43,547 nt of DNA from an uncultured beta proteobacterium (GTDB lineage Bacteria; Pseudomonadota; Gammaproteobacteria; Burkholderiales; Burkholderiaceae_C): NCBI GenBank assembly GCA_903845345.1, contig CAIMXF010000016.1:1-43547 (forward strand), given 5' to 3'. Below, in pieces: positions 15,947 through 32,000 of this stretch. The position numbers and the translations under genes were made by a program. How positions within the stretch are numbered: the first letter of the stretch is position 1; the number at the start of each line of letters is the position of its first letter. The notes below the pieces were generated by a model, which saw nothing but the letters and a program-made list of their open reading frames with translations, ran no database searches and was not told the DNA's origin.

Positions 15947-16666
15947 TCAGGCTGACGGTCTGCGCGCGAGAGCCTCGACAGCGTCGCGGTAAGCGCGCGC
16001 CACCGGACGCACCATGCGGTGGCTCAGGGTCACCTCGTCGCCCGAAACACCCGTCAGGTGCGCGCGGTTGACCAGATGGCGCTTGTGGATGCGCACGAAG
16101 CCGAACAGGGTCAGGCGCTGCTCGAGCGTGGCGATGCCCTCGCTGACGCGGATCGACTCACCGGACAGGATCAGCCGGGCAGCGTCGCTGCTGGCGTCAG
16201 CGTCCACCGCGATGATTGCGCTCGGCACGACGAGCCGGTGGCCAGGGCCATCGGCGAACGCGAGCGGCATCGCTGTCGGGCTGCCGCCCTGCGCACGCTT
16301 CAAGCTCAGCAGGGGCCTCAAGCGCCCCAGCGTGTCGTCCAGCGTGCCCTGTGCGATGGGCTTGAGCAAGTATTCGCGGACCCCCGCCTCGTAGGCCAGC
16401 ATCGCGTATTCGGCATACGCGGTGAGCAGGACCCCGATGCCGCCGGGCTTCCAGGCGCGCAGCCATTCCAGCCCGGACATCGCGGGCATCCGGGCGTCGA
16501 TGAATACGAGGTCCACCGGATCGCGAGACAGCACTTCGAGCGCCTGGACTGGCTGCAGAAACCTTCCGCCGTCCACGAAATCGGGATGGCTGCGCAGGAG
16601 CACCCTGAGCGCATCGTGGGCGACGGGCTCGTCATCGACCGACGCATAGACCCAGGGCGCTACCAC
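15947..16666 (-). CDS. LytTR-type response regulator (REC + LytTR)
   Basis: VYASVDDEPVAHDALRVLL...LVFIDARMPAMSGLEWL...YLLKPI; C-term FVRIHKRHLVNRAHLTGVSGDEVTLSHRMVRPVARAYRDAV. GTG start overlaps the upstream kinase stop. Confidence 0.9.
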   Translation of the reverse strand: MVAPWVYASVDDEPVAHDALRVLLRSHPDFVDGGRFLQPVQALEVLSRDPVDLVFIDARMPAMSGLEWLRAWKPGGIGVLLTAYAEYAMLAYEAGVREYLLKPIAQGTLDDTLGRLRPLLSLKRAQGGSPTAMPLAFADGPGHRLVVPSAIIAVDADASSDAARLILSGESIRVSEGIATLEQRLTLFGFVRIHKRHLVNRAHLTGVSGDEVTLSHRMVRPVARAYRDAVEALARRPSA

Positions 16667-17631
16667 GTCGCCAGTTCCACGCGAAAGTTGTCGCCGTGCA
16701 CTTGTGCCTCGAGCCGATGGCGTCCAGGCATGACATGGTGCAGGCGGCGTCGCAGGAGTGCCAGGCCGATCTCGGCTTCGCGTCGTGCGATGGCCGCAGC
16801 GGCCTCGCCGGCTGTCCGCTGCGAGATCGACAGCCTGATGCCGACCTCGGTGGCAGACATCGCGACACGCACGTCAAGAGGCGCGGCCGATCCGCGATCG
16901 CGGCGCAGTGCGTGGTGGAACAGGGTGGCGGCCAGCAACGACGGCACGGCTTCGTCGCCGTCGCCCTCGAATTCCAGACTGATCGTCCCGACCTCGTGGT
17001 CGCGCGCGAGGCAGAGTCGGGCGCAGGCTTCGATGTATCGCCTTTCCTCGTGAAACGCAACCTCATCACGCCGCGGTGCTTCCACCAGGTGGCGCATCAC
17101 GACGGACAGGTCCAGGATCAGCGACGATGTGCGTTCCGGCGCACGGAGGGCCACCTCGTGCAGGGTGCGCAGGTTGTCGCTCAGCACCTGCGGCGCCATC
17201 TTCGAGCCGAGCAGTCTTTGCTCTGCCGCGGACTGCAGGCGCTTGGCGACGGGCAGCCGTCTGTCGGTCTGCCAGGCGGCGAGCATGCCGCGGATCGCCA
17301 GGGTGAGCGCCACGGCGAACAGGCAGGCGGCGAACAGGGAGACCAGCGGTGCGTCGGTGCCCAGCCGGCGCATCATCGGAGCGAAGGCGAAAGACCAGAC
17401 TGCGCAGCCCGCTATGACCAGGCCGACCTTCAGCCACGTGCCCGGCCGGGCACGCCCCGCCAGCCACCGGGCGGCGTAGATCGGCGGTGCGAGCAGGCCC
17501 GCCAATTTGAGCAGGCCGGGCACGAACTGATGCGGCATCGGCGACTGGACCGGGTTGGCGCGCGTCACCGCGGCGATGAGCAACGCCGTCGCGAGCCAGA
17601 GGGCGACGTGCACGAGGAGCTTGCGCATCAT
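16660..17631 (-). CDS. LytS-like sensor kinase homologue, apparently catalytically degenerate
   Basis: N-term TM segments; LGSKMAPQVLSDNLRTLHEVAL aligns with the PHFLFN region but lacks His; ATLFHHALRRD aligns with ATLFENAVKHG and lacks the N-box Asn. Confidence 0.8.
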   Translation of the reverse strand: MMRKLLVHVALWLATALLIAAVTRANPVQSPMPHQFVPGLLKLAGLLAPPIYAARWLAGRARPGTWLKVGLVIAGCAVWSFAFAPMMRRLGTDAPLVSLFAACLFAVALTLAIRGMLAAWQTDRRLPVAKRLQSAAEQRLLGSKMAPQVLSDNLRTLHEVALRAPERTSSLILDLSVVMRHLVEAPRRDEVAFHEERRYIEACARLCLARDHEVGTISLEFEGDGDEAVPSLLAATLFHHALRRDRGSAAPLDVRVAMSATEVGIRLSISQRTAGEAAAAIARREAEIGLALLRRRLHHVMPGRHRLEAQVHGDNFRVELATW

Positions 17632-17693
17632 GCTGCCTTCGGCCAGCAGCGCGCGTTCGGTGCGGCTGGGTCCCGCCGTCGCGTCGTGGCGGC

Positions 17694-18728
17694 TCACCAC
17701 GCCTCCATCAGGACCTCGAACGAGCGACCTTGCGGAGCGGCCTCGAAACGATGGCGGTACGGGTAGAGGTATTGAAGGCGCCGCCGCACCAGGTCGACGC
17801 CGGCGAGCATTCCCGGCGGTGCGTTGCGAACGTCCGACAGCCGGTTGCTCATGCGCAGCAGGAAGCCCTGGGCATGCACGTTCAGGTTGACGTCGATGTC
17901 CACCTTGCCGGCCGAATCCATGCCGTGCTTGACCGCATTCTCGAACAGGGTGGCGGTCAGGAAGGCGGGGATGGCGTTGCCGGGATCCCCCTCGAACGCC
18001 AGTTCGATCGTCGAGTGCGGGTCGAGACGGATCAGCGCGAAGCGCCTGTAGGCTTCGATGAAGCGCCATTCCTCCGCGGCGCTGTGGAGTTCCGCCGGAC
18101 GCTCGACCGTCAGCGGGGTCATCATGTTGGCGAGATCCTGCACCAGCGGTGCCAGCTCCGCGGGACGCGTCAGCGACACGGCGTAGAGCGTGTTGAGCAG
18201 GTTGAACAGCGTGTGCGGGGCCAACTGGGCGCCGAGCAGCTGCTGTTCGGCGGCGATGCGCAATTGCTCCAGCCGTGCAATGCGACGCCGCGCCCGCAAT
18301 CCGCGCAGCGTCTCGCTTGAACCGAGGGCAATGGCGGTCACGAACGCCATGTCGGTGATGCTTTCCAGAAAGGTCGCCCGCAGACCCATGGCCCTCGAGA
18401 TCGGCAGCAGGCAGACGCTCCAGGCGACGGCCATGATCGCCACGGCAAGCAGTCGCATCGGCAGACTGGCCCTCAAGCGCCTGAACAGCGCAATGCATCC
18501 GTACCACGGCAACGCGAACCCGATCAGGGTCAGCGCCACGTAGTCGATGAACACGCGCAGGCTCAGTCTGTCGCTCGATTGCTCCAGGTCCACCCACAGG
18601 AGCAACAAGCACCAGGCGCACCAGGCGAGCGCGTGCAGGGCGATCCTGCCGGCGATCACAGGCAGGGGCAGCGTCCCTCGTGCCGCGTGCGACGCGGAAC
18701 CGGCCTTGGCCGACTGCGCTGGTTTCAT
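17694..18728 (-). CDS. LytS-like sensor histidine kinase (His_kinase family)
   Basis: Four or more TM segments; LGAQLAPHTLFNLLNTLYAVSL phospho-acceptor motif; ATLFENAVKHGMDSAGK N-box. Confidence 0.87.
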   Translation of the reverse strand: MKPAQSAKAGSASHAARGTLPLPVIAGRIALHALAWCAWCLLLLWVDLEQSSDRLSLRVFIDYVALTLIGFALPWYGCIALFRRLRASLPMRLLAVAIMAVAWSVCLLPISRAMGLRATFLESITDMAFVTAIALGSSETLRGLRARRRIARLEQLRIAAEQQLLGAQLAPHTLFNLLNTLYAVSLTRPAELAPLVQDLANMMTPLTVERPAELHSAAEEWRFIEAYRRFALIRLDPHSTIELAFEGDPGNAIPAFLTATLFENAVKHGMDSAGKVDIDVNLNVHAQGFLLRMSNRLSDVRNAPPGMLAGVDLVRRRLQYLYPYRHRFEAAPQGRSFEVLMEAW

Positions 18729-18943: not shown

Positions 18944-20122
18944 TCACGGCGCGGGCGTGCGCGCGCCGCCCGAGGCTGCAACCGGTGGCCACTTCCTCTG
19001 CAGCGCCTGGACATCCGACGGATGGACGTTGGCCTGCGCCAGCGAGCCTGCGCAATACGACAGCACGCGCCGATCCATGAGCGCGAACCACACCGGAGGG
19101 AGGTAGACCGCCCACATCAGGCCCGCATAGCCGATCGGCAATTGCGGGCTGTCGCGATCCGCCCGCAGTGTCTGGTATCGGCGTGCGGGGTGGGCGTGGT
19201 GGTCCGAGTGGCGCTGCAGGTTGAACAGCAGCCGGTTGCTGAGCCTGCTGTCGCAGTTCCACGAGTGCCTCGGGGCACAGCGCTCGAGCTTGCCGTCGAT
19301 CGTCTGGCGCTTGAGGCCATAGTGCTCGATGTAGTTGATCGCCTCCAGCAGCGAGACGGCATAGGCCGCCTGCAGCAGCACGAACAGCGCTACATGGCCG
19401 TTGCCCAGCATCCACGCCGTCGCCACGAGCATCGCCGAGACCGCATGCGACTGCAGGCACTCGTTGGACGCGTGCCAGGGCGTCCGCCCAACGCGGGCGA
19501 GCCTCACCGCTTCGATGCGCCAGGCCGAAACCGCGCCTCCTGCCACCGAGCGAGGCAGGAAGCGCCAGAAGCCTTCGCCCAGGCGCGCGCTTGCCGGATC
19601 CGACAAGGTGGCGACGCGCCGGTGATGGCCCCGGTTGTGTTCGATCCGGAAGTGGCCGTAGCAGGCCGGCGCCAGGGCGAACCTCGCCGCCGCAGCAGCG
19701 AGCGCGCCGGCGTGATGGCCTATTTCGTGGGCTGCAACGATCGCGAGCCCATTGACGGCACCGACCGTCGCGACGAGGCCTGCGAACGCGACCGCGGACA
19801 GGGACGGTCGCGCCGCGAGCGCCAGCGCCGCGGCGAACGTGGCCCATTGCAGCGGCAGCAGCAGCCATGGCAGGGCCGCGTGCGCGCCGTCCGCCTGCCC
19901 GGCGCCAGGGCCTTGCGGATCGTCGCCGAGCAAGGCATCCAGCGCCGGGATGACCACAAACAGCAGCGCGGGCACGCACCACAGGAGCAAGGTGGGCGCC
20001 CCCAGGCAGACGGCCAGCACGAGCAACGACGCCAGAGCAGGCATCAGCAGGCTGGGCAGCCACCGCGCTGCGCGAGGCGGGGCGTGGCGGCGGATGGCTG
20101 GCGAAGGGGCAGGCATGTTCAT
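18944..20122 (-). CDS. AlkB-like alkane 1-monooxygenase / membrane fatty acid hydroxylase-desaturase family
   Basis: His-rich motifs HEIGHHAG, EHNRGHH, NYIEHYGL and LQRHSDHHAHP in an integral-membrane context match the AlkB signature set. Confidence 0.88.
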   Translation of the reverse strand: MNMPAPSPAIRRHAPPRAARWLPSLLMPALASLLVLAVCLGAPTLLLWCVPALLFVVIPALDALLGDDPQGPGAGQADGAHAALPWLLLPLQWATFAAALALAARPSLSAVAFAGLVATVGAVNGLAIVAAHEIGHHAGALAAAAARFALAPACYGHFRIEHNRGHHRRVATLSDPASARLGEGFWRFLPRSVAGGAVSAWRIEAVRLARVGRTPWHASNECLQSHAVSAMLVATAWMLGNGHVALFVLLQAAYAVSLLEAINYIEHYGLKRQTIDGKLERCAPRHSWNCDSRLSNRLLFNLQRHSDHHAHPARRYQTLRADRDSPQLPIGYAGLMWAVYLPPVWFALMDRRVLSYCAGSLAQANVHPSDVQALQRKWPPVAASGGARTPAP

Positions 20123-20299
20123 TGGCGCGCGCCGGCGGATCGGCGCATGTCGGCGGTTTGGCGCCGGGGACGGGGGAGCATCAATCTTTCACATATCGGC
20201 AATCGGACTGGTCGCTGAAGCCTTCAACCTTCCTTCACAGGCGCCGATAAGAAAGGCAGAGCGGGTCGTTCCCGACGCCGCGACCCGACCACAACTCCC

Positions 20300-22792
20300 A
20301 TGAAAGCCCTCTTGTCCGCAGTACCGCACCTGGTATCAGGACTGGACCCGGGCGCGCCCGACGCCGCGGGGCCGGTGCGCGAGCATGAACGGCGCCTGGC
20401 GCAAATGGCGGTGCTCAACGTCATCGCCAGCGTGCTGCTCGCGCTTGCCGCAGGACAGGGCTTGGCCGCATGGACGGCCGTCATCGCCACGATGGGCTAC
20501 AGCTGGTGCGGGCAGGTCGTGTTCTTCGCGCTGGTGCGCAGCGGCTGGTCGAAGCGGCGTCCGGATCCCACGTTGTCGTTCGAGCAGTTGATGTTCGCCA
20601 TATCGGTGGTGGTGCTGTCCTACGGCCTGCTCGACATCGCGCGCGGCGCTGCGCTCGAACTCCTGTGCCTGCTGCTCGCATTCGGCATGGATCGCTTGTC
20701 CACGCGTCAGTTGCTGAAGGCCTCGATCTGCGCCGTCACGATGCTGGCGTTGACCTCGGTGGCGCGCATCGCGCTGGGGACGGGCGCCTTGCGCGTGCAC
20801 CTGGAGGTCTACAACCTGCTGATGGCTGCGGTACTGCTGCCCGTGGCCATCATCGCCGGTGGAGAGATCAGCCGGCTCCACAGACGTCAGGCGATCCAGC
20901 GCAGCGAGCTGGCCTCGACGCTGGGCAGGCTGACCGAACTGTCGCTTCGCGACGGATTGACCGGGCTGACGAACAGGCGCCATGTGCTGCGCATGATCGA
21001 GCAGACCCGTCAGCAGGTGGCGACGACGGGAAGCGGGTACTGCGTCGCGATGCTGGACATCGACTGGTTCAAGCGGGTCAATGACGGCTACGGGCACGCG
21101 GTGGGCGACCTGGTGCTCAAGGAGTTCGCGTCGCTGATGCGGTCGATCCTCGACAGTCGCTTCACGCTGGCGCGATGGGGCGGCGAAGAATTCCTGCTGC
21201 TGATGCCTGCCTGCAACCTTCTCGAGGCCCAGGCCGCGCTGTCCGCGTGCAGCCGGAGCGTGCAGGCGCACGACTGGTCTGCCCTGGCCGCCGGGCTGGC
21301 CATCACATTCTCGGCGGGCATCGCAGGAAGCCGGGACCACGAAACGATCGACGACACGCTGCAGCGTGCGGACCGGAGCCTGTACGTGGCCAAGGCCAAC
21401 GGCCGAAACCGCACCGAGGTCTGCGTCGAGGACAGCAGGCACACGAGCACCGCAGCGATGTCCGCTGCGCGGCCGCCTGCGGTTGCGCATGCCGCGCCAA
21501 CACCGCATCGGCCGCAGCACCAGGCGTCAGCCGGCGCCTTCCCGCACCGGCCCGTCGGCAGTGGCCGCGCGGCGGGCCATTTCGTCGAACGGCGCGCGGA
21601 GGATGGCCGGGCCGTCGACGCCGGCCGTCGTCCAGCCAACGTCGTTGCATGGCTGGTGGATGTCGTCACGAGCAGGTCGCCCGACATCCGCGAGAACCTC
21701 AGGTTGCCGCTGATCGCCTGCGTGCTGCACGCCGTCTGGTTGGCGGCTGTCTACTTCTATGCGATGCCGCATGGCGCGATCGATGCCCTGGCGGGGTGGT
21801 TCGTGATCGCCTATGAATCCGCCTGCGCGGTCGGCTTCTATGCAGCCATCCGCTCGGGCTGGTCGCGGCGATTCGCCGACGGCGGGCTCGTGCTCGCCCA
21901 GATGCTCGCGGCGAGCGCCATCGCTTCCTTCGGCTATGTCGCGGCGCCGGAACTCAGGCCGTCCATCCTGCACCTGCTGTGTGTGATACAGGTATTCGGC
22001 ATGGTGACGCTGCGCCCCGGCGAGACCAGGACCGCGGGCATGGTCGGCATCGTCCTGCTCGGCGCGGTCATCGCGTGGCTGACCTGGACAGCGCCCGCTG
22101 ACCTGAACGCGGAGATCTTGAAACTCGTGCTCGCCTGCACCGTCATCTTCCAGCTCTCGATCCTGTCGCATGTGTACAGCACCCTTCGCGAGCGCGTGCA
22201 CTCCGATCGCCTGCAACTCGAACAAGCCGTCGTGCAGGTCGAGGAGCAGGTGATGCGGGACCCGCTCACCGGACTGCTCAATCGCCGCTACATGGAGCAG
22301 GCCCTGGCCGCGCGCCATGCGGCGTGGCTCGCCGGCAACGGCGACTTCTGCCTGGGTATCCTCGATCTCGACCACTTCAAGACGATCAACGACGAGAAGG
22401 GTCATCACATCGGCGACGCGGTGCTTGTCGCGCTGGCCCAGGCCGCGGCACAGACGCTTCGCGACTCGGATCTCATCTGCCGCTGGGGCGGAGAGGAGTT
22501 CATATGCCTGCTGCAAGGCAGCGCGCCCGAGTCGGCGAGTCGCGCGACGCTGCGGCGGCTGCGCTCGGCATTTGCGCAGGCTTCTGCAAACGTCCCGGGC
22601 CTCGGCCAGACCGTGACGTTCTCGACCGGCTTCGCGCGCCCGCGCGACGGGGTGGCGCTCGAGGAACTGATCGCGCAAGCCGATCGTGCGCTCTATGACG
22701 CCAAGCGGGGCGGCCGCGATCGCGATGTTTTCGCCTACGAGCCGTCAGACCGCGCCGAGCGCGTTCCCGCCGCATCGATCGCGACGCGATGA
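20300..22792 (+). CDS. Tandem membrane-GGDEF/membrane-GGDEF protein
   Basis: 830 aa; two TM blocks each followed by a GGDEF domain: LARWGGEEFLLLMPAC and RDSDLICRWGGEEFICLLQGS. Confidence 0.88.
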   Translation: MKALLSAVPHLVSGLDPGAPDAAGPVREHERRLAQMAVLNVIASVLLALAAGQGLAAWTAVIATMGYSWCGQVVFFALVRSGWSKRRPDPTLSFEQLMFAISVVVLSYGLLDIARGAALELLCLLLAFGMDRLSTRQLLKASICAVTMLALTSVARIALGTGALRVHLEVYNLLMAAVLLPVAIIAGGEISRLHRRQAIQRSELASTLGRLTELSLRDGLTGLTNRRHVLRMIEQTRQQVATTGSGYCVAMLDIDWFKRVNDGYGHAVGDLVLKEFASLMRSILDSRFTLARWGGEEFLLLMPACNLLEAQAALSACSRSVQAHDWSALAAGLAITFSAGIAGSRDHETIDDTLQRADRSLYVAKANGRNRTEVCVEDSRHTSTAAMSAARPPAVAHAAPTPHRPQHQASAGAFPHRPVGSGRAAGHFVERRAEDGRAVDAGRRPANVVAWLVDVVTSRSPDIRENLRLPLIACVLHAVWLAAVYFYAMPHGAIDALAGWFVIAYESACAVGFYAAIRSGWSRRFADGGLVLAQMLAASAIASFGYVAAPELRPSILHLLCVIQVFGMVTLRPGETRTAGMVGIVLLGAVIAWLTWTAPADLNAEILKLVLACTVIFQLSILSHVYSTLRERVHSDRLQLEQAVVQVEEQVMRDPLTGLLNRRYMEQALAARHAAWLAGNGDFCLGILDLDHFKTINDEKGHHIGDAVLVALAQAAAQTLRDSDLICRWGGEEFICLLQGSAPESASRATLRRLRSAFAQASANVPGLGQTVTFSTGFARPRDGVALEELIAQADRALYDAKRGGRDRDVFAYEPSDRAERVPAASIATR

Positions 22793-22820
22793 CGGCCATG
22801 ATCACGCCGCCTGCCGACGC

Positions 22821-25472
22821 TCAGGCGACGCCCCGCACCGTGTTTCGGCCCGACTGCTTGGCTTCATAGAGCGCGCGATCCGCCAGTTCGACGACTTCCT
22901 GCCAGCCGGCGGCGGCCGGACGCAAGGGATCGCTCGGGAAACAGGCGAACCCGATGGACGCCGTGATGGCCAGCGATGCATCGCCCGCAACGAAAGGACT
23001 CGCGCAGACGACGCGCCGCAGCCGCTCGCCGAGCGCGGGGACGCGATTCCTGCTGACGCGTCGAGTCACGACCATGAATTCCTCGCCGCCCCAGCGCGCC
23101 AGGTAGTCGCCGTCGCGGCATGCCTGCACGAGCCGGTCCCGCATCTGAGCCAGCACGGCGTCTCCGACGGGATGGCCGTACGTGTCGTTGACCTGCTTGA
23201 AGTGGTCCAGGTCGATCATGAAGAACGCGAGGTCGTCCGAAACGGGCAGCGCCGGGCGCGCGTCCTCGTAGGCGCGCAGGCACAGTGCGATGTCAGCGTC
23301 AAGTTGCTGCAGCAGGAAGCGCCGGTTGCGCAATCCGGTCAGGGGATCGGTGAGACTCATTTCGGACAGCCGGGCATTGGCTTGTTCGAGCTGCTTGTAG
23401 GTGCGTGCGTTGCCCAGCGCGATGGCGCCGTAGGCGCTGAGCGTTCTCAGGACGAGCCGTTCTCGATGGCCATAGGCGTCGCCGCGCTCGGACTGCAGGG
23501 TCATGACGCCCAGAAGCCGTTCGCCCACCAACAGCGGCGAATACAACGCGCTGCGGGTATAGAGCGTCCCGGCCATGCGTTGGTCCTGCGCCGGCTCGTC
23601 GCTGCCCCGCGTGCGGAAGACTTCCTCGCGAGTGCGCGCGCACAGGGCGGTTCCGGCCTCCGGGTCGTCGATGCTCACGACGACGGGCACCAACAGCGGC
23701 AGGCCGTCTTCCACGCCATGCGCCAGTTCCAGGCGCAGCCCGTCTTCGCTCATGAGGAAGATGGCGAACGAACTCGCGTCGAGCAGGCCGCACAGGTGGC
23801 GGCCCAGGGCCTCGAAAATGCTTCGGTCGTCGAGATGCGCCGTCACTTCGCGACCGACGATGCCCAGCAGCGCGAGCGTGTCGCTGGTGCGTGTCAGGAC
23901 GTCGGCGCGCGCGGCCTGCTCGCGCGCCAGTTGCTGATGGTGCTCCATCAGCGTGCGCGCGCGTTGCACACGGTGGCGCACTTCCATGGCGATTGCCCGG
24001 TTGGCAGTCTGCTCGGTGTATTCGGCACGCCGCGCCGTCGCGGCGCGGCTCGAAAACCCGTAGGCGACCTCGAAGTCCTGCCGCCTGGCATGCGCTTGCG
24101 CCAACCCGCTCAACAGGTCGGAGCGGATCGGTAGCCCGGCAGCGGTCGCGACGTCCAGCGCGCGGTGGAGGAAATGGATTTCTCCGTCGGGCCAGGGGCT
24201 TTCGGGGACGGGTGCCGTGCTGCCTGGCGCGTAGGCGGACGCCATGACGAACAGGATCTCGGACTCGACGAGGGCGTTGCCCAGCAGACGCACCAGCGTC
24301 AGCGCAGACTGGCCGATTTCGAGTGCTCGCTCGTGCTGTCCCAGCGCGACGTACACCTCGACCTGCTGCCTCAGCGCGAGCACCTGATGGGTCGTGCTGC
24401 CGCTCGCAAGCGCGTGTTCCTCCTGCGCGCGGTAGGCTTGCAGCGCCTGTTCCAGGTTGCCGAGCGCGAATTCGACTTCGCCCAGAACTTGCAGCAGGAC
24501 CGTGTAGCTCGCGATCCGGGTGAGGCCGGCAAGCGCCTCCCTGGCTTCCAGGATCTGCTCGCGCGCAGCGTCGACATTGCCGAGCTCGCACAAGGTGTGG
24601 GCGCTCTGGACGAGGCAGATGCCGATGTGCCGGGGAACCCCGCGTTGCCGCGCACGCTCCAGTGTTTCGTCGATACGTTCCAGCGCGCCTGCATGGTCGA
24701 CCAGGTTGGACAACGCGCTGGCCGCGTTGCAGGCGCAGACGGTCGCTCGGCGTTCCTGCCCGACCCATCGGTAGGCATCGACGGCGATCGTCAGGGATTC
24801 CAGGCCGATGCGGTTGTCGCCGCGATTGATGGCCACGGTGCCGACGTAGTCGTGCACGACGGCCAGCAACGCGGCATCGTCGCCGAGCGCGCGCAGATCC
24901 GATCCTTGCCGAGCGGTATCGACGAGGCCCTTGTCGACGAACGACCGCCACCGTGCGTCGGCCGCGACGATGCTGGCCGATGCGGCGAAGATCGCCTCGA
25001 AACCGTCGAACAGGCGGGCGCGGGTGTCGTCGCCGACCACGCGTGCACGCACGGCCGCGGCACCCAGCAAGGCGGAACTGGCCTCGCGGTCGCCGGCGTC
25101 GTGTTCGACCAGCCCGGCCACGAACAGCGCATCGGCAACGCCGACGCCGTCACGGGCGGACTCGAACAGCGGCCTGGCGCGAGCCGCCTGGGACCGGGCA
25201 GCGTCCAGGCGCGACATCTGGAGGTCGACCTCGGCCATCACGAGCGCGAGACGGCCGGCGAAGGACTGCTGCACCGGCGACGGCGCCAGTGCGATTTCAG
25301 CGTCGAGAGACCGTGCCGACCGCTCCGCCGCGAGCGGAAAGCGTTGTCGGAGGTGCCATGCGATTTCGACGCGCAACGCCAGGCGCCGGTCGTCGTCGCG
25401 TGCGTCCGATCCGAGCTCGCTGCATTCGCGCTCGAGCGCCTCGAGCGCCTCGTCAGTGACCATGAACTTCAT
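22821..25472 (-). CDS. TPR-like repeat + GAF + GGDEF protein (putative diguanylate cyclase)
   Basis: Long Ala-rich helical repeats, GAF-like region (IFEALGRHLCGLLDASSFAIFLMSEDG...SALYSPLLVGERLLGVMTLQ), then LTDPLTGLRNRRF...RDGDYLARWGGEEF. Confidence 0.88.
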   Translation of the reverse strand: MKFMVTDEALEALERECSELGSDARDDDRRLALRVEIAWHLRQRFPLAAERSARSLDAEIALAPSPVQQSFAGRLALVMAEVDLQMSRLDAARSQAARARPLFESARDGVGVADALFVAGLVEHDAGDREASSALLGAAAVRARVVGDDTRARLFDGFEAIFAASASIVAADARWRSFVDKGLVDTARQGSDLRALGDDAALLAVVHDYVGTVAINRGDNRIGLESLTIAVDAYRWVGQERRATVCACNAASALSNLVDHAGALERIDETLERARQRGVPRHIGICLVQSAHTLCELGNVDAAREQILEAREALAGLTRIASYTVLLQVLGEVEFALGNLEQALQAYRAQEEHALASGSTTHQVLALRQQVEVYVALGQHERALEIGQSALTLVRLLGNALVESEILFVMASAYAPGSTAPVPESPWPDGEIHFLHRALDVATAAGLPIRSDLLSGLAQAHARRQDFEVAYGFSSRAATARRAEYTEQTANRAIAMEVRHRVQRARTLMEHHQQLAREQAARADVLTRTSDTLALLGIVGREVTAHLDDRSIFEALGRHLCGLLDASSFAIFLMSEDGLRLELAHGVEDGLPLLVPVVVSIDDPEAGTALCARTREEVFRTRGSDEPAQDQRMAGTLYTRSALYSPLLVGERLLGVMTLQSERGDAYGHRERLVLRTLSAYGAIALGNARTYKQLEQANARLSEMSLTDPLTGLRNRRFLLQQLDADIALCLRAYEDARPALPVSDDLAFFMIDLDHFKQVNDTYGHPVGDAVLAQMRDRLVQACRDGDYLARWGGEEFMVVTRRVSRNRVPALGERLRRVVCASPFVAGDASLAITASIGFACFPSDPLRPAAAGWQEVVELADRALYEAKQSGRNTVRGVA

Positions 25473-25757
25473 TGATGGCTCCTAGAAGGGCGTCGGCGCC
25501 CGGGTGCCGCACCGCCGACACCCTTCGGCATTGCCCGGGAGGGACGCCGGCCGCCATCGCGCCGGCCATCCTGGCGATGATAGGTAAACGCGCCGGTGCG
25601 GTGCACCGCGCCGGACGGCAATCGACGAGAGTCGTCGGTTTCACAACGGTCGGGCTCGCCTGTGGCGCAAAGTGCAGCAAAGAATGATCGATCGCGAGGG
25701 TTCACAATCCACTGCACGCACAACGATCCTCCTGCAAGCATCGATTCACAGCTGCCG

Positions 25758-28700
25758 ATGAAACGTCCCAGCGCTGCCAATACGACCGTGGAGACCGCCC
25801 CGATCGAGATCCTGGTGCTGGGAGGATTCTCCGTGCGAGGGATCGGCGGGCAGGGCCTGGGCCAGATTGAAGGGCGCACCCACGTGCGGGCCCTGCTCGC
25901 CCTGCTTGCGGCACATCCTCAAGGCGTGCAGCGCGACGAGGTCGCCGACGTGCTCTGGCCCCGCCTGGGCGAGGCCGCGGCGCGAAATCGGCTGCATCAC
26001 ACCATGCATCTCGCGCGCCAGGCGCTCGGCGCGATCGCCTGGCCGGATGAGTGGCTCCAGCTGCAACAGGGTCGTGTCCAGCTGGATCCGCGGGTCGACT
26101 CGGACGCGCATCGGATCCTCCGCCTCGTGCAGCAGCCGCTGGAGGCCGCGTCGGAGGTGGATCTGCTCACCGCGCTGGACCAGTATCGCGGCGAGTGGGC
26201 GCCCGAAGTTGTCGCAGGAGGCCTCGGCCATACGGTGCGGCGCCAGTTCCAGGAAGCGCACGTCGCCTTGCTGAAGGAAGCCGCGCGCCGCCGCATCGCG
26301 GAGGGCGACGTCCCTGTGCGCAGGCAGTTCCTCGAACGCATCGTCGACATCCAGCCTGCCGACGAATGGGCCTACCAGCAGCTGATGCAACTCGATCTGG
26401 ATTCGGGCCGCCATCACGCCGCGCTGCGGCTTTTCGAGGCTGCCGGGCGCGCCCTCGGTCAAAAGCTGGGGCTTCGGCCATCGAAGGTGCTCGCCGACAT
26501 CGCCGCGGACGCGGCGGCGCGGATCGGCCCCGACGTGCGCCTGCACGATCGCCTCGCCGCGCCGGGTGAAATGCTGATCGACCGGGAACCGCTGATACGA
26601 GACATCTGCGCGGCACTGCGCAGCGGGCCCGGGGTGTGGAACGTGCACGGCCTGGGCGGAGTCGGCAAGACGGCGCTGATGCGCGAGGTGATGCGCCGCG
26701 CGGGGCCCACCCGTCCCGATGGCGTGATCTACGTGCCGTTGGGCGACGGCAAGGGCCCTTCCATCGCGCAGACGGTCTGCCTCGCCGCCGGCCTCGATCC
26801 CGAGAGCGAGCTCACCACCGAGGCCGCCTTCGCTTTGTTGCTGGCGTCGCGGGACATGCTGGTCGTGCTGGACGACCTCGATGAAAGACCCGAAGGCGCT
26901 TCGCTTCTCGCGGCCCTGCCCGCAGGCCTGCGATCGCGCGTGGTGGCGATCACGCGCGTTCCGGTGGCACTCGCCGAAGTGAACCACGTCGCCGTCCGCC
27001 CGCTGGGGGTTCCGGACGCTGACGCCCCGCTCGTCCAGGTACGGCTGTCGCCGGCGATCGCGTGCTATCGGCTGCGCCGGCCCGTCGCCGACGTCCATGA
27101 ATGGTCAGCCCAGCACTGGAGCGAAGTGATCGCCCTCGTGCGCAAGCTCGATGGCCTGCCCCTGGCCATCGAGCTGGCAGCGGCCCGCTCGGCCACGATG
27201 ACGGCCGGAGAGATCCTCGCGCAACTGGAGGCGAGCGCGGGCGACGATGAATCGCCAGGCTTGCACGACAGCAGTTACCTGCACGGACCGGTCGGTGCGG
27301 CCCTGGCGCTTTCGGTGCGGCTGCTCGGGCCGCACGCCCGCATCGTGCTGCATGGCTGCGCCGAACTGCCCGGCTGGTTCGCACCCGAAGATGCGATTGC
27401 CGTGTCGGAGGCGGCCGGACTCGGCAAGGGGCTCCCGCTCGCAGGCTGTCTCGATGAACTGGCAGATGCCGGGCTGCTCGAGCGTCGCGATGGCCGTTTC
27501 CGGATGCTGCATCTCACGCGCGATCACGCTCGCCGCGAGGCGGCGTACGCCGGGTTGTTGCCGGCCATCCGCCGCACCCGCATCGAGGCGATGGTGCAAC
27601 GCCTGCATCGCGAGGCCTGCGACATCGAATCGCCCGGATACACGCGCTGGATGGACACGCTCCTGGCCTGCCATGACGAGGCGCTGCCCCTGCTCGACGA
27701 GGTGGGCGCCGAGGACCCCGACTTGTTCCTCGGCTTACTGGTGCCGTTGATGCACTCGTGGGCGGTGCGCGGTCTGCTGACTCTCGGCTTGCGCTGGGCT
27801 CCGGTAGGCATCGCCGTGGCCGAAGCGGTCGGCGATCGCCAGGCGGCGGTCGGCGTTCGGATACTGACCGCGGCGTTGCTGATCGACGGCCGCCGTTTCG
27901 ACGAGGCGCTCACGTACTCGGGTGCCGCCCTGGCGGAGTTCGAATCCGGTGGCGGCGACGAGCTCTCGCCGGTCCTGCGGGCACACCTCGTGGCGCTGCA
28001 CGCCGAGGCCACGGCAGGCACGAGTCCGCTGGCTGTCGCACTCGGCGCCATCGATGCCGAACTGGCGGCGATGCAAGGTGCGGAGCAGCCGGGATGGTGG
28101 ACCTTGCAGGCAGCCAGGCTGGATCTGGGGCAAGCCATCGCGGTGGCGTCGATGCCCGGCGATCAGGCGCGCGTCTGGCCCGTCGATGCCTGGCGTGCAC
28201 GGTTGGCCGGGTCGCTGACCTGGTGCGATCTCCTGCTCGCACTCAGCGGTGGCGTACCGGGGATGGCGCCGCAGGAGCGGCTCGACCTCTGCGATGAACT
28301 GCTGGCCTGCGCACGGGAGCTGCGCGCGCCGCGTGCGACCCACGCCGCCTTGAGCCGTCGAGCGTGGGCGCAGATGGCATCGGGAAGGATCTCCGACGCC
28401 GAGGCGACCGTGATCGACTGGTACCGGCTCGCGCGAGCGGCGGGCCGCGACTCGGCGGCCACCTACGCCTGCCTGTGGCTCGCCGAGCTCTCGTGGCGGC
28501 GCGACGACGTGAACGGCTGTGCGCCCTGGATGGACGCCGCCAGGAAGCTTGTCGCTGACCTGCCGCACGCCAATTCCATGCGCATCAACGTCGCGCTTCA
28601 CGAGATCGTCATCGACGCGCTGCACGGCGCGCTGGCCGGCGGCATCGCGCGCTTCGTCGCATTGCCGGTCGATTTCATCGCCACCGCGCGTCGCACGGCA

Positions 28701-28967
28701 CTGGAACACGTGGTCGAGGCCGCCGCCTTGCTGGCCGCCCGATGCGGCCTGGCGCATCTGGCGACCACGCTCTCGCAGTCGCTCGGCGTGCTGTCGGACG
28801 CCAAGGACAACGTCGCGCTGGTGACCGACTTTCGGGCGCGCCATCTGACGAACGCTTCCCCCGTCCGGGAGGAGAGCCTGCTTGCCGCGGAACACGTCAT
28901 CGAACGCGCCCGGAGCGATCTGTTGACGCTGCATGAGTACTGGAGCGCCGCGCCTGCGGCCCGATGA
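25758..28967 (+). CDS. SARP/AfsR-like regulator: DNA-binding + BTAD + P-loop NTPase + helical repeats
   Basis: N-term IEILVLGGFSVRG...VRALLALLAAHPQGVQRDEVADVLWPRLGEAAARNRLHHTMHLARQAL; BTAD; Walker A VHGLGGVGKTALMREV; Walker B MLVVLDDLDE; GLPLAIELAAAR. ORF opens at 25596. Confidence 0.85.
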   Translation: MKRPSAANTTVETAPIEILVLGGFSVRGIGGQGLGQIEGRTHVRALLALLAAHPQGVQRDEVADVLWPRLGEAAARNRLHHTMHLARQALGAIAWPDEWLQLQQGRVQLDPRVDSDAHRILRLVQQPLEAASEVDLLTALDQYRGEWAPEVVAGGLGHTVRRQFQEAHVALLKEAARRRIAEGDVPVRRQFLERIVDIQPADEWAYQQLMQLDLDSGRHHAALRLFEAAGRALGQKLGLRPSKVLADIAADAAARIGPDVRLHDRLAAPGEMLIDREPLIRDICAALRSGPGVWNVHGLGGVGKTALMREVMRRAGPTRPDGVIYVPLGDGKGPSIAQTVCLAAGLDPESELTTEAAFALLLASRDMLVVLDDLDERPEGASLLAALPAGLRSRVVAITRVPVALAEVNHVAVRPLGVPDADAPLVQVRLSPAIACYRLRRPVADVHEWSAQHWSEVIALVRKLDGLPLAIELAAARSATMTAGEILAQLEASAGDDESPGLHDSSYLHGPVGAALALSVRLLGPHARIVLHGCAELPGWFAPEDAIAVSEAAGLGKGLPLAGCLDELADAGLLERRDGRFRMLHLTRDHARREAAYAGLLPAIRRTRIEAMVQRLHREACDIESPGYTRWMDTLLACHDEALPLLDEVGAEDPDLFLGLLVPLMHSWAVRGLLTLGLRWAPVGIAVAEAVGDRQAAVGVRILTAALLIDGRRFDEALTYSGAALAEFESGGGDELSPVLRAHLVALHAEATAGTSPLAVALGAIDAELAAMQGAEQPGWWTLQAARLDLGQAIAVASMPGDQARVWPVDAWRARLAGSLTWCDLLLALSGGVPGMAPQERLDLCDELLACARELRAPRATHAALSRRAWAQMASGRISDAEATVIDWYRLARAAGRDSAATYACLWLAELSWRRDDVNGCAPWMDAARKLVADLPHANSMRINVALHEIVIDALHGALAGGIARFVALPVDFIATARRTALEHVVEAAALLAARCGLAHLATTLSQSLGVLSDAKDNVALVTDFRARHLTNASPVREESLLAAEHVIERARSDLLTLHEYWSAAPAAR

Positions 28968-29035
28968 GGGATGTCCGTCAGTTCATGAGGCCGCGTCCCG
29001 TGGACCTCGGCATCGTCGTGCGCAGGACGGCCTGG

Positions 29036-32000
29036 TCAGGGGCGCACGAGCGATTCCAGGAGTTCGTCGAGCGTCGCTACGCGCACCGTCAGGCGGGTGG
29101 ATTCCTCGCTCGAGCCTTCGGACAACGCTGGCAGGCCTGCCCTCAGGTCGTGCGCGCGCTGTGCGACCCACAACCGCAGGCGGTGCTGCGGCCGGCGCGA
29201 GAATTCCGCCAGCCGCTCCAGCGCGCGCGTGGCCAGGTCGGGGCGGCCCAGGTGCAGCAAGAGGTCGGCGGCATTCACGCAATCGCCCTGCAGGTCCGGC
29301 AGATGCCTGTCGCGGGAAGGGATGTCCAGGAGTTCGCCGACGCGCCGGACCGCGATCGCCCGCGAGCCCTGCCGCGCGTCGAGCAGCGCAGACAGGGTTT
29401 CGACGCTGACGCGTGTTCCCATGTTGGCGCTCAGCTTGGCCTGCTCGCGCAATTCCGTCGCGAAGGCCCGCGCCACCGGCCAGGCACCCATCGCGTAGTT
29501 GGCCCAGCCCAGCAGCAGCAGCCCCCGCGTGGCCAGCGCGGGATGCCGGGTGACCTCGGGCCGTGCCATCAGCAGGGACGTGGTCTCGATCGCGCGCTGG
29601 AACTGCATGTCCGACATCAGTACCGCGGCGCGCAGCAACTCCGCCTTGGCCGCCTCGCTCTGGTCGGACAGCGCGCGTGCCGAACGCTCGACGTGCAGGA
29701 TGCACTGCTGCGCAAGGCTCGTGTCGCCAAGCGCAAAGGCGATCTTGGCGCGCATCTGCTGGCTCTTGAGCAATCCTCGCGTCAACCCGAAGTGGTTGAA
29801 GACGCCGACGGCCTCCGCGCACGACTGGAGCGCCTTGGCCAGTTCGCCCTGGCGCAGCGTCGCCTGGGCGACCCGCAACAGGCTCTCGCCAGCTTCGATG
29901 CCCTTGGCGTTGACCGACGGGGCGCGCGCACTGCCGGCCTGGGAGGCGCCGTAGCGGTCGATCAGCGAGATGGCCGCAGATCGCAGCGCCTGGTCGCCCG
30001 AAGTCCCGAGCCGCGATACGGCCCGGCCTGCATCCTCGAAAGCGCCGTGCAGTTGACCGAGCTGCGCTCGCAGCCTGGCGCGCTCGACGAACAATTGTGC
30101 CGCGCAGGCGTCCGGCACCTGTTCCATGTGTTCGCCCAGGCTGGTGAGCCAGTCCAGCACCCGCGGCGCGTGGCGCGAGCCGCCCCAGGCATGCCGCTGC
30201 GCGGCGCAGAGCGAGGCCAGGTCGGCGTGCCGCCCGCCGATCTGCCACTCGCGCACAAGGGCCTCGAAATCGTCGATGTGGTCGTCGAACCAGGTCGCTG
30301 CGCGCGTGACGGCCGCGAGTGTCGTGTCCGAAGGCGATGCACCCAGCGTCAGCCAGGCCGCGATGCGCGCCTGCACCGTGTGCGGCGGCAAGTCATCGCC
30401 GGCGATCACCTGCGCCGCGACCGCGTAGCGCGGCACCCTGAATTCACTCCAGGCGCCGTCGTGCGCCTGCCGCACTCGCCGCAGGAACAATTGCTGGCGC
30501 ACGGCCTGCTCGACCAGGCCGTGCACGGCCGCGGGTTCGCCGTCCCACAGTGCCGCCAGATCATCGCGGGAGAGCCAGCTCCTGCAGCGCCCGGCCAGGG
30601 CCAGCAGGCGCTTGAGGTCCGCGGAGGCCGACTCCACCCACCGCACCAGCGCTTCCCCCGCCGGCGAGGCGCTGCGCGCGACGTCGACCGGTCGCAGGGG
30701 ATCGCGCAGCAGCACGACGGGATCGCGTTCCAGGCGCGAGACCAGTTCGTTCGGCCACATCGTCTCCAGGACGCGGCCGGCGGCTTCCAGCAGTGACGGC
30801 AGCCCGTCGACGGCGAGCGCGATCGCCTCGACGGTCGCGCGCACGCGCTTGTCCTGCAGCGACCAGCCGTGGACGCCCGACCGATGCACCAGTTGCGCCG
30901 CCGGCGGCGGTGTCGCCGAGTCCGGGGAATGCAGCAGGTCGGTCGGATCGACGATCAGGTTCTTCTCGTCGCGCAGGCGCAGCGGGGTCTGGGCCGTCAC
31001 CAGCCATCGGACGTCCCTGTTCATCGCGTGCCACGCGGAGATGGCGCGCGCGATCTCCGGGTGGCAGGGCGAGGCCAGGCCGTCCAGCACGACCAGCAAC
31101 TCGCGGCCATGCAGCGCCTGCATGACGGCCTCCACGGTCGACTCGCAGCGGTCGCGAGGCATGAGGGCACGCGCCACCGCCAGAAGAAAGTCGGTGACGT
31201 GCGTGCTCGCGTTCTGGCAATCGATCCAGACGACCCCATGGCGGAAGTGACTCGAGGTGCGATGGCACAACTCGATCGCCAGCGCGGTCTTGCCGCAACC
31301 GGGCGGCCCGACGAGCGCAACGAGGGTCGAGTACGGATCGGCGAGCGTCCGCGACGCGGCCTCCAGCAGCCCCTGGTAACCGACGATCGCCTTGCGAAGC
31401 GGCAGCGCGGCACGCGCCGGCTCCGGCGCCATGGCGACGATGCCGGGTTCGGTTGCCGAGGCCGCCGCGGGCCGGTTCGCGCGCTGCTGGATGTCACGCA
31501 CCAGGTCGTCGAGGCGATGGACGGCGCCGCCATCCTCCTCTTTCAGCAGATCGCGGATGCTCCGGCAATGCGACACCGCGGCATCGGGCCGACCCCGATC
31601 GGCCATCAGGCTCGCGTAGACGCAATGAGCCTCGACGCCGGCCGAGGGGCGCAGGGCACGGCGCAACGCATATTGCAGCGCGAGATCGGTGTACTCGAGA
31701 TCGGTGGCGAGCTGGACCGCTTCCGCGAGAGCCTGGTCGAACAGGCCCGCCAGCCAGGCACGGCGCGACTCGATCTCGGACGACGAGTCCCAGTCGGTCG
31801 CCAGATCGTCCTGGTACCAATGAAGCGCTCGCGCCACCGCCGCGAACCGGCTTGCGTCGTCAATCGCTTCGGTCTCGAACGCGGCGAGAAACTCCTGCGC
31901 ATCGAGCAGCACGTCCGGCGGCAGCTTGAGCTCCACGCGCTCCGCGCCAACCACGATCTGTGGCCGCAGGGCCAGCGGCAGCGTCTCGAAGCCCTGGCGT

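Follow-up and report, generated by a model that had tools for sequence, protein, structure and literature searches.

A pseudo-histidine kinase encoded between a PF06580 kinase and a LytTR regulator: a recurring operon in Burkholderiales

Within the window, the 43,547-nucleotide stretch of DNA analyzed here, three overlapping genes encode a membrane histidine kinase (HK-A), a paralog that has lost its catalytic residues (HK-B), and a LytTR response regulator. The same order of kinase, pseudo-kinase, and LytTR regulator recurs across Burkholderiales, and this recurring, independently evolved operon is a more interesting result than the observation of the window pair. Known pseudo-histidine kinases are a handful of isolated examples, namely DivL, RetS, and FasC. 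The loci reported here form a widespread and conserved set in which the operon ties a dead kinase to its active twin and their regulator, while the window pair represents an independent origin with a single-kinase ancestor that is still visible. In Burkholderiales, many genes of the PF06580 type have the look of sensor kinases but cannot encode kinases. The recurrence of the gene order suggests that such a dead sensor kinase belongs to the standard working parts of a switch built from three proteins. The role of such subunits is open to experiment, since the partner is identified, the gene is amenable to deletion, and natural variants exist by the dozen.

Locus layout and catalytic residues

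The genes for HK-A (17694..18728), HK-B (16660..17697), and the regulator (15947..16666) follow one another on the minus strand, and the open reading frames are exactly those in which an earlier, sequence-only reading had recognized two adjacent paralogous kinases and one REC-LytTR regulator. HK-A is a membrane protein with a His_kinase domain (PF06580) and retains, as that reading had it, both the acceptor His172 in APHTLFN (codon 18213..18215, minus strand) and the N-box ENAVKHG (17922..17942, minus strand; FENAVKHG with the preceding residue). The regulator combines a REC domain (PF00072, 53 bits) with a LytTR DNA-binding domain (PF04397, 30.7 bits), and its VDDEP, D57, LLTAY, and LLKPI motifs are intact, including the T and the K, which identifies it as a LytTR response regulator.

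The end of HK-B at 16660 agreed with the earlier proposal, but its start, formerly placed at 17631, is probably the in-frame GTG at 17697, since this codon gives a 4-bp GTGA overlap with the HK-A stop (17694..17697, minus strand). The resulting protein has 345 amino acids, and its stop overlaps the GTG start of the regulator by 7 bp (16660..16666, minus strand), bearing out the translational overlap noted before. Long spurious open reading frames are common in the window, which has a GC content of 68%, and we therefore considered a chance open reading frame. This is disfavored for HK-B: its GC content by codon position (0.74/0.51/0.84) is coding-like, resembling that of the neighboring genes, and the protein is homologous to HK-A over its full length.

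HK-A and HK-B aligned over 321 amino acids with 31 to 32% identity and 5 gaps. The Pfam PF06580 model (cutoff, 25.2 bits), proposed earlier as a check, recovered HK-A at 38 bits but not HK-B, which scored 21.2 bits and is nevertheless homologous to HK-A. Both proteins are PF06580 kinases accompanied by a LytTR regulator. Neither is LytS proper (HPK8), because the LytS-specific 5TM domain is absent; no Pfam match to a 5TM-5TMR_LYT or GAF input domain was found in either protein, and each is predicted to contain about four membrane helices.

At the positions of the HK-A motifs, HK-B indeed reads APQVLSDN and FHHALRRD. Since both the acceptor His and the N-box Asn present in HK-A are lost, we term HK-B a pseudo-kinase of the PF06580 family. 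In an alignment of HK-B with 14 other PF06580 kinases, it was the sole row of 15 with H170 and N262 changed, which upholds the earlier claim of their loss from an intact frame. Five positions that are invariant in the other 14 sequences were altered in HK-B alone: H170 (to Q; codon 17188..17190, minus strand), N174 at +4 (to D), E261 (to H), N262 (to H), and H266 (to R). In the former N-box (16897..16920, minus strand), the E, N, K, H, and G are all substituted, and only one of seven N-box residues matches HK-A, compared with 64% identity in the flanks. HK-B also lost F173, Y225, and one G-box Gly at near-invariant columns; those it retained (L163, P169, L176, L197, E218, R232, A263, L312, R318, and L319) are nearly all structural. 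An AlphaFold2 model of HK-B (mean pLDDT 78; DHp and CA mostly 80 to 95) comprised a membrane part of four helices, a DHp hairpin, and a CA-type sheet, and its closest PDB match was the GanS kinase domain 6swk. These observations support the view that the predicted fold and the reading frame were retained while catalysis was lost. The G-box of HK-A is itself partly degenerate (GMLAGVDL versus the GHGVGLKN type), so full activity of HK-A is not certain.

Recurrence, origins, and selection

Scanning with PF06580 revealed a second pair of a strong and a weak kinase match followed by a LytTR regulator in the same genome, on contig C262. This operon (L001, 475-3789) is unrelated to that of the window; its pseudo-kinase reads SVNTEVLYDA and has no recognizable N-box, and a gap of about 450 bp precedes the regulator. 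Similar loci were present in one genus mate (L098) and in further genera. When a profile built from four pseudo-kinases was run against 201 genomes of the family, degenerate copies were found in 22, with a canonical kinase directly upstream, within the fetched stretch, in 21 of these. Searching every genome contig for a version of the PF06580 acceptor motif in which Gln replaces His returned 40 loci, mostly from Burkholderiales, in genera including Roseateles, Mitsuaria, Pelomonas, Rubrivivax, Rhizobacter, Variovorax, and Massilia.

Together, these loci gave 44 distinct kinase/pseudo-kinase junctions. The start codon of the pseudo-kinase lies at an exact 4-bp overlap in 42 of the 44, the same geometry as at the HK-A/HK-B junction. 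A downstream regulator of the LytTR type was detected in 35, in most cases with another 4-bp overlap; among the remaining loci, several run up against a contig or locus border, or their regulator lies beyond the scanned offset (e.g., L042). The window operon shares this order and its overlapping genes. Among 43 pseudo-kinases, the acceptor His is replaced in 42 (by Q, E, A, M, R, or L) and the N-box Asn in all 43, while the Asn at +4 has become Asp in 29. Nearly all of them retain P(-1), L(+2), F(+3), L(+6), P(+36), and E(+48). Part of the preference for Gln reflects the scan that required this residue; among profile-found loci, Gln occurs in 8 of 17. A pseudo-kinase of this conserved family was predicted to adopt a kinase fold (pLDDT 90), with 6swk as the first PDB match and DivL (4q20) as the fourth. 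A spread of these pseudo-kinases beyond the family was considered and rejected, as 10 of 10 class-wide loci that were fetched proved to be canonical kinases.

Four kinase-type genes stand in a row on one strand at G503:C4:123173-127576, and in the locus fetched from there (L071) canonical and degenerate copies adjoin. One betaproteobacterial metagenome-assembled genome has two consecutive kinase/pseudo-kinase pairs, both pseudo-kinases reading PQFLFN (L112, 979-5723). The pseudo-kinase of L069 (444-1853) kept the acceptor His (MEPHLLFD) and lost the N-box, leaving an acceptor without an ATP site, comparable to FasC. In two Massilia loci (L121 and L089), a kinase located about 700 bp past a canonical one has Gln for the acceptor His together with an intact N-box (LVENAIRHGL); these products lack the His but perhaps bind ATP.

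In phylogenetic trees, 38 other pseudo-kinases formed a single clade (99/96), while HK-B grouped with HK-A (100/99) outside it. Since the window pair falls outside this clade, the architecture of kinase, pseudo-kinase, and LytTR regulator has evolved independently at least twice, once as an ancient and conserved family, and the Massilia pair L121, with the His lost and the N-box present, is a third and milder case. Both the tree and an AU test of forced monophyly (p 0.0105) rejected membership of HK-B in the conserved pseudo-kinase family, a result to be read with care given the long branch of HK-B.

The pseudo-kinases of the wider family, of which HK-B is not a member, are under purifying selection. 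Their dN/dS was 0.11 (L060/L061) and 0.135 (L056/L057) for the closest pairs and 0.2 to 0.38 for most pairs with at least 78% identity, compared with 0.05 to 0.4 for the partner kinases; in one pair the pseudo-kinase value was 0.43 versus 0.49 for the kinase. Values at larger distances were saturated (near 1) and were excluded. Distances among the pseudo-kinases covaried with those among their partner kinases (r 0.89; 0 of 2,000 permutations), a correlation to which shared species history contributes.

HK-B itself arose as a lineage-specific tandem duplicate from a single-kinase ancestor. A profile combining HK-A and HK-B, the only search in which this relative surfaced, identified G615 as the sole one of 401 family genomes with a relative of the window pair. 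G615 carries one kinase (SPHTLFN, ENALKHG, GLGLGQAL) and a regulator that is 44% identical to that of the window, and the two genes overlap by 7 bp, matching the HK-B/regulator overlap. HK-A and HK-B were sisters with the G615 kinase outside (96/84 and 100/100), which places the tandem duplication that produced the second kinase in the window lineage. HK-B evolves somewhat faster than HK-A (branch lengths 1.47 versus 0.98; exclusive matches to G615, 39 for HK-B versus 66 for HK-A; Tajima chi2 6.9). Because these 39 residues were kept in HK-B where HK-A has changed, HK-B has not simply decayed. No HK-B ortholog was found, G615 having only a single kinase: a search with P0002 gave none in 60 relatives and 369 class genomes, the window regulator had none in 101 family genomes, and a P0002 peptide scan of 84,980 species genomes, a weak test since the chosen peptides were not conserved ones, gave no relative.

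Proposed role of HK-B

For comparison with studied systems, we note that the Fas kinases are of the HPK10/AgrC kind rather than PF06580, that FasA is a LytTR-family regulator, and that DivL belongs to the HisKA kind. The FasB/FasC/FasA system is the nearest studied case to HK-A, HK-B, and their regulator. In group A Streptococcus, FasB and FasC heterodimerize in two-hybrid assays upstream of FasA, and as in the window, two adjacent membrane kinase-type genes, one of them proposed to encode a pseudokinase, precede one regulator gene; however, it is the presumed pseudokinase FasC that contributes the acceptor His (H246), with the kinase domain coming from FasB, whereas HK-B contributes neither (PMC12675982). 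RetS, a kinase-dead histidine kinase-like protein, controls the active kinase GacS by direct contact, as we propose for HK-B and HK-A, but it retains an H-box and phosphatase motif, carries receiver domains, is encoded elsewhere, and belongs with a different kinase family and regulator (PMC5992135). Similarly, the pseudo-histidine kinase DivL, whose structure 4q20 was among the top matches of the conserved-family model, modulates its partner kinase CckA; unlike HK-B, it has Tyr at the acceptor site and is single copy and unlinked to its partner (PMC4211667, PMC9430884). BtsS/BtsR and YpdA/YpdB also pair a PF06580-type kinase with a REC-LytTR regulator, but with one active kinase per regulator and with 5TM-5TMR_LYT and GAF input that HK-A and HK-B lack (PMC5552118). 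In the literature searched, which excluded most subscription journals, we found no report of PF06580 pseudo-kinases or of a recurring kinase/pseudo-kinase/LytTR operon.

We consider it fairly probable that HK-B is a noncatalytic partner subunit that tunes HK-A through a DHp heteromer and forms one signaling unit with the regulator. The three overlapping genes would then yield a LytTR regulator and two membrane subunits of the kinase type. Of these two, HK-A alone would be catalytic, binding ATP, phosphorylating its own His172, and passing the phosphate to D57 of the regulator. After the tandem duplication of HK-A's ancestor, HK-B would have lost the acceptor, phosphatase-type, and ATP-site residues and been kept as a noncatalytic subunit that binds HK-A, and possibly the regulator too, via its DHp helices. 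Translational coupling may ensure that HK-B is made in step with HK-A, and HK-B may add a second membrane input and shift HK-A toward its on or its off state. The heteromer could be active if PF06580 kinases phosphorylate within one protomer; were phosphorylation confined to the opposite protomer of the dimer, HK-B would act as an inhibitor. We infer heteromer formation, and likewise the direction of control, the signal, and the target genes; activity of the pair is not assured, because the G-box of HK-A is itself altered. By analogy with FasBC, a direct precedent, the earlier suggestion of a heterodimer partner or sensor arm is plausible.

The findings support one half of the earlier proposal of a pseudokinase with retained function, namely loss of catalysis with fold and frame preserved. 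The other half, that HK-B probably retains a function, is strongly favored by two results: the gene order recurs, and the pseudo-kinases of the wider family are under purifying selection. It is rather unlikely that HK-B is a recent duplicate on its way to becoming a pseudogene, intact only through short time and operon read-through. The lack of a detected ortholog, the visible single-kinase ancestor, and the longer HK-B branch would fit such decay, but at 32% identity the duplication is old, and HK-B nevertheless has no stop or frameshift. Its coding-like codon-position GC, its exact overlaps with both neighbors, its retention of ancestral residues that HK-A lost, the concentration of damage in catalytic motifs, and the conservation of equivalent genes elsewhere also speak against decay.

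That HK-B acts alone on the regulator, by stripping its phosphate or by sequestering it, rather than as a partner of the kinase, appears improbable. The regulator-docking DHp helices are retained and kinase-dead RetS can dephosphorylate a receiver (PMC5992135), but at +4, the site that by analogy corresponds to the phosphatase residue in HExxT/N of other kinases, HK-B and most members of the wider family have Asp instead of Asn. We regard as very doubtful that HK-B is still an active kinase using nonstandard acceptor and ATP-site residues. A His does lie 10 residues past the lost acceptor (LHEV) and IGL remains of the G-box. A conserved His or Asn elsewhere in HK-B had been named as evidence against a pseudokinase, and none was found: relatives do not conserve the LHEV His, the N-box is entirely gone, the G-box has lost two of its three Gly residues, and no alternative N-box Asn exists in the CA region, whose sole Asn lies in GDNF at the far C terminus. 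An assembly or binning artifact is extremely unlikely, even though the assembly is of metagenome type (631 contigs, 6.9% contamination) and the region lacks synteny in three genus mates, since the open reading frame and overlaps are exact, an independent locus on another contig and named isolates show the same architecture, and wrong binning would alter the name of the host rather than the finding.

A broader proposal than a noncatalytic partner role for HK-B is, in our judgment, possible but distinctly tentative. Sensors with three obligate parts may have arisen repeatedly in Burkholderiales. In each, the active PF06580 kinase would function solely in a heteromer with a cotranslated paralog that supplies no acceptor His and no ATP site, and this pseudo-kinase would be a dedicated allosteric and sensory subunit that forces phosphorylation within the active protomer. 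If true, such a design would amount to a class of two-component system absent from the literature searched.

Genes upstream of the operon

No LytTR-type direct repeats and no convincing sigma-70 promoters were found upstream of the operon; the lack of such repeats counts against the proposed signaling unit. Positions 19000-31000 of the window had no syntenic counterpart in three other genomes of the genus and may be an accessory region or part of a mis-binned contig. The next gene upstream of HK-A, on the same strand (18944-20122, minus), encodes an AlkB-like membrane desaturase/hydroxylase (PF00487, LQRHSDHHAHPARRYQTLR), which is at most a guess as a possible target of the system. Beyond it, a single open reading frame of 830 amino acids (20300-22792, plus strand) contains two complete membrane-GGDEF modules, both reading GGEEF, and has a paralog with about 72% DNA identity on contig C235 of the same genome.
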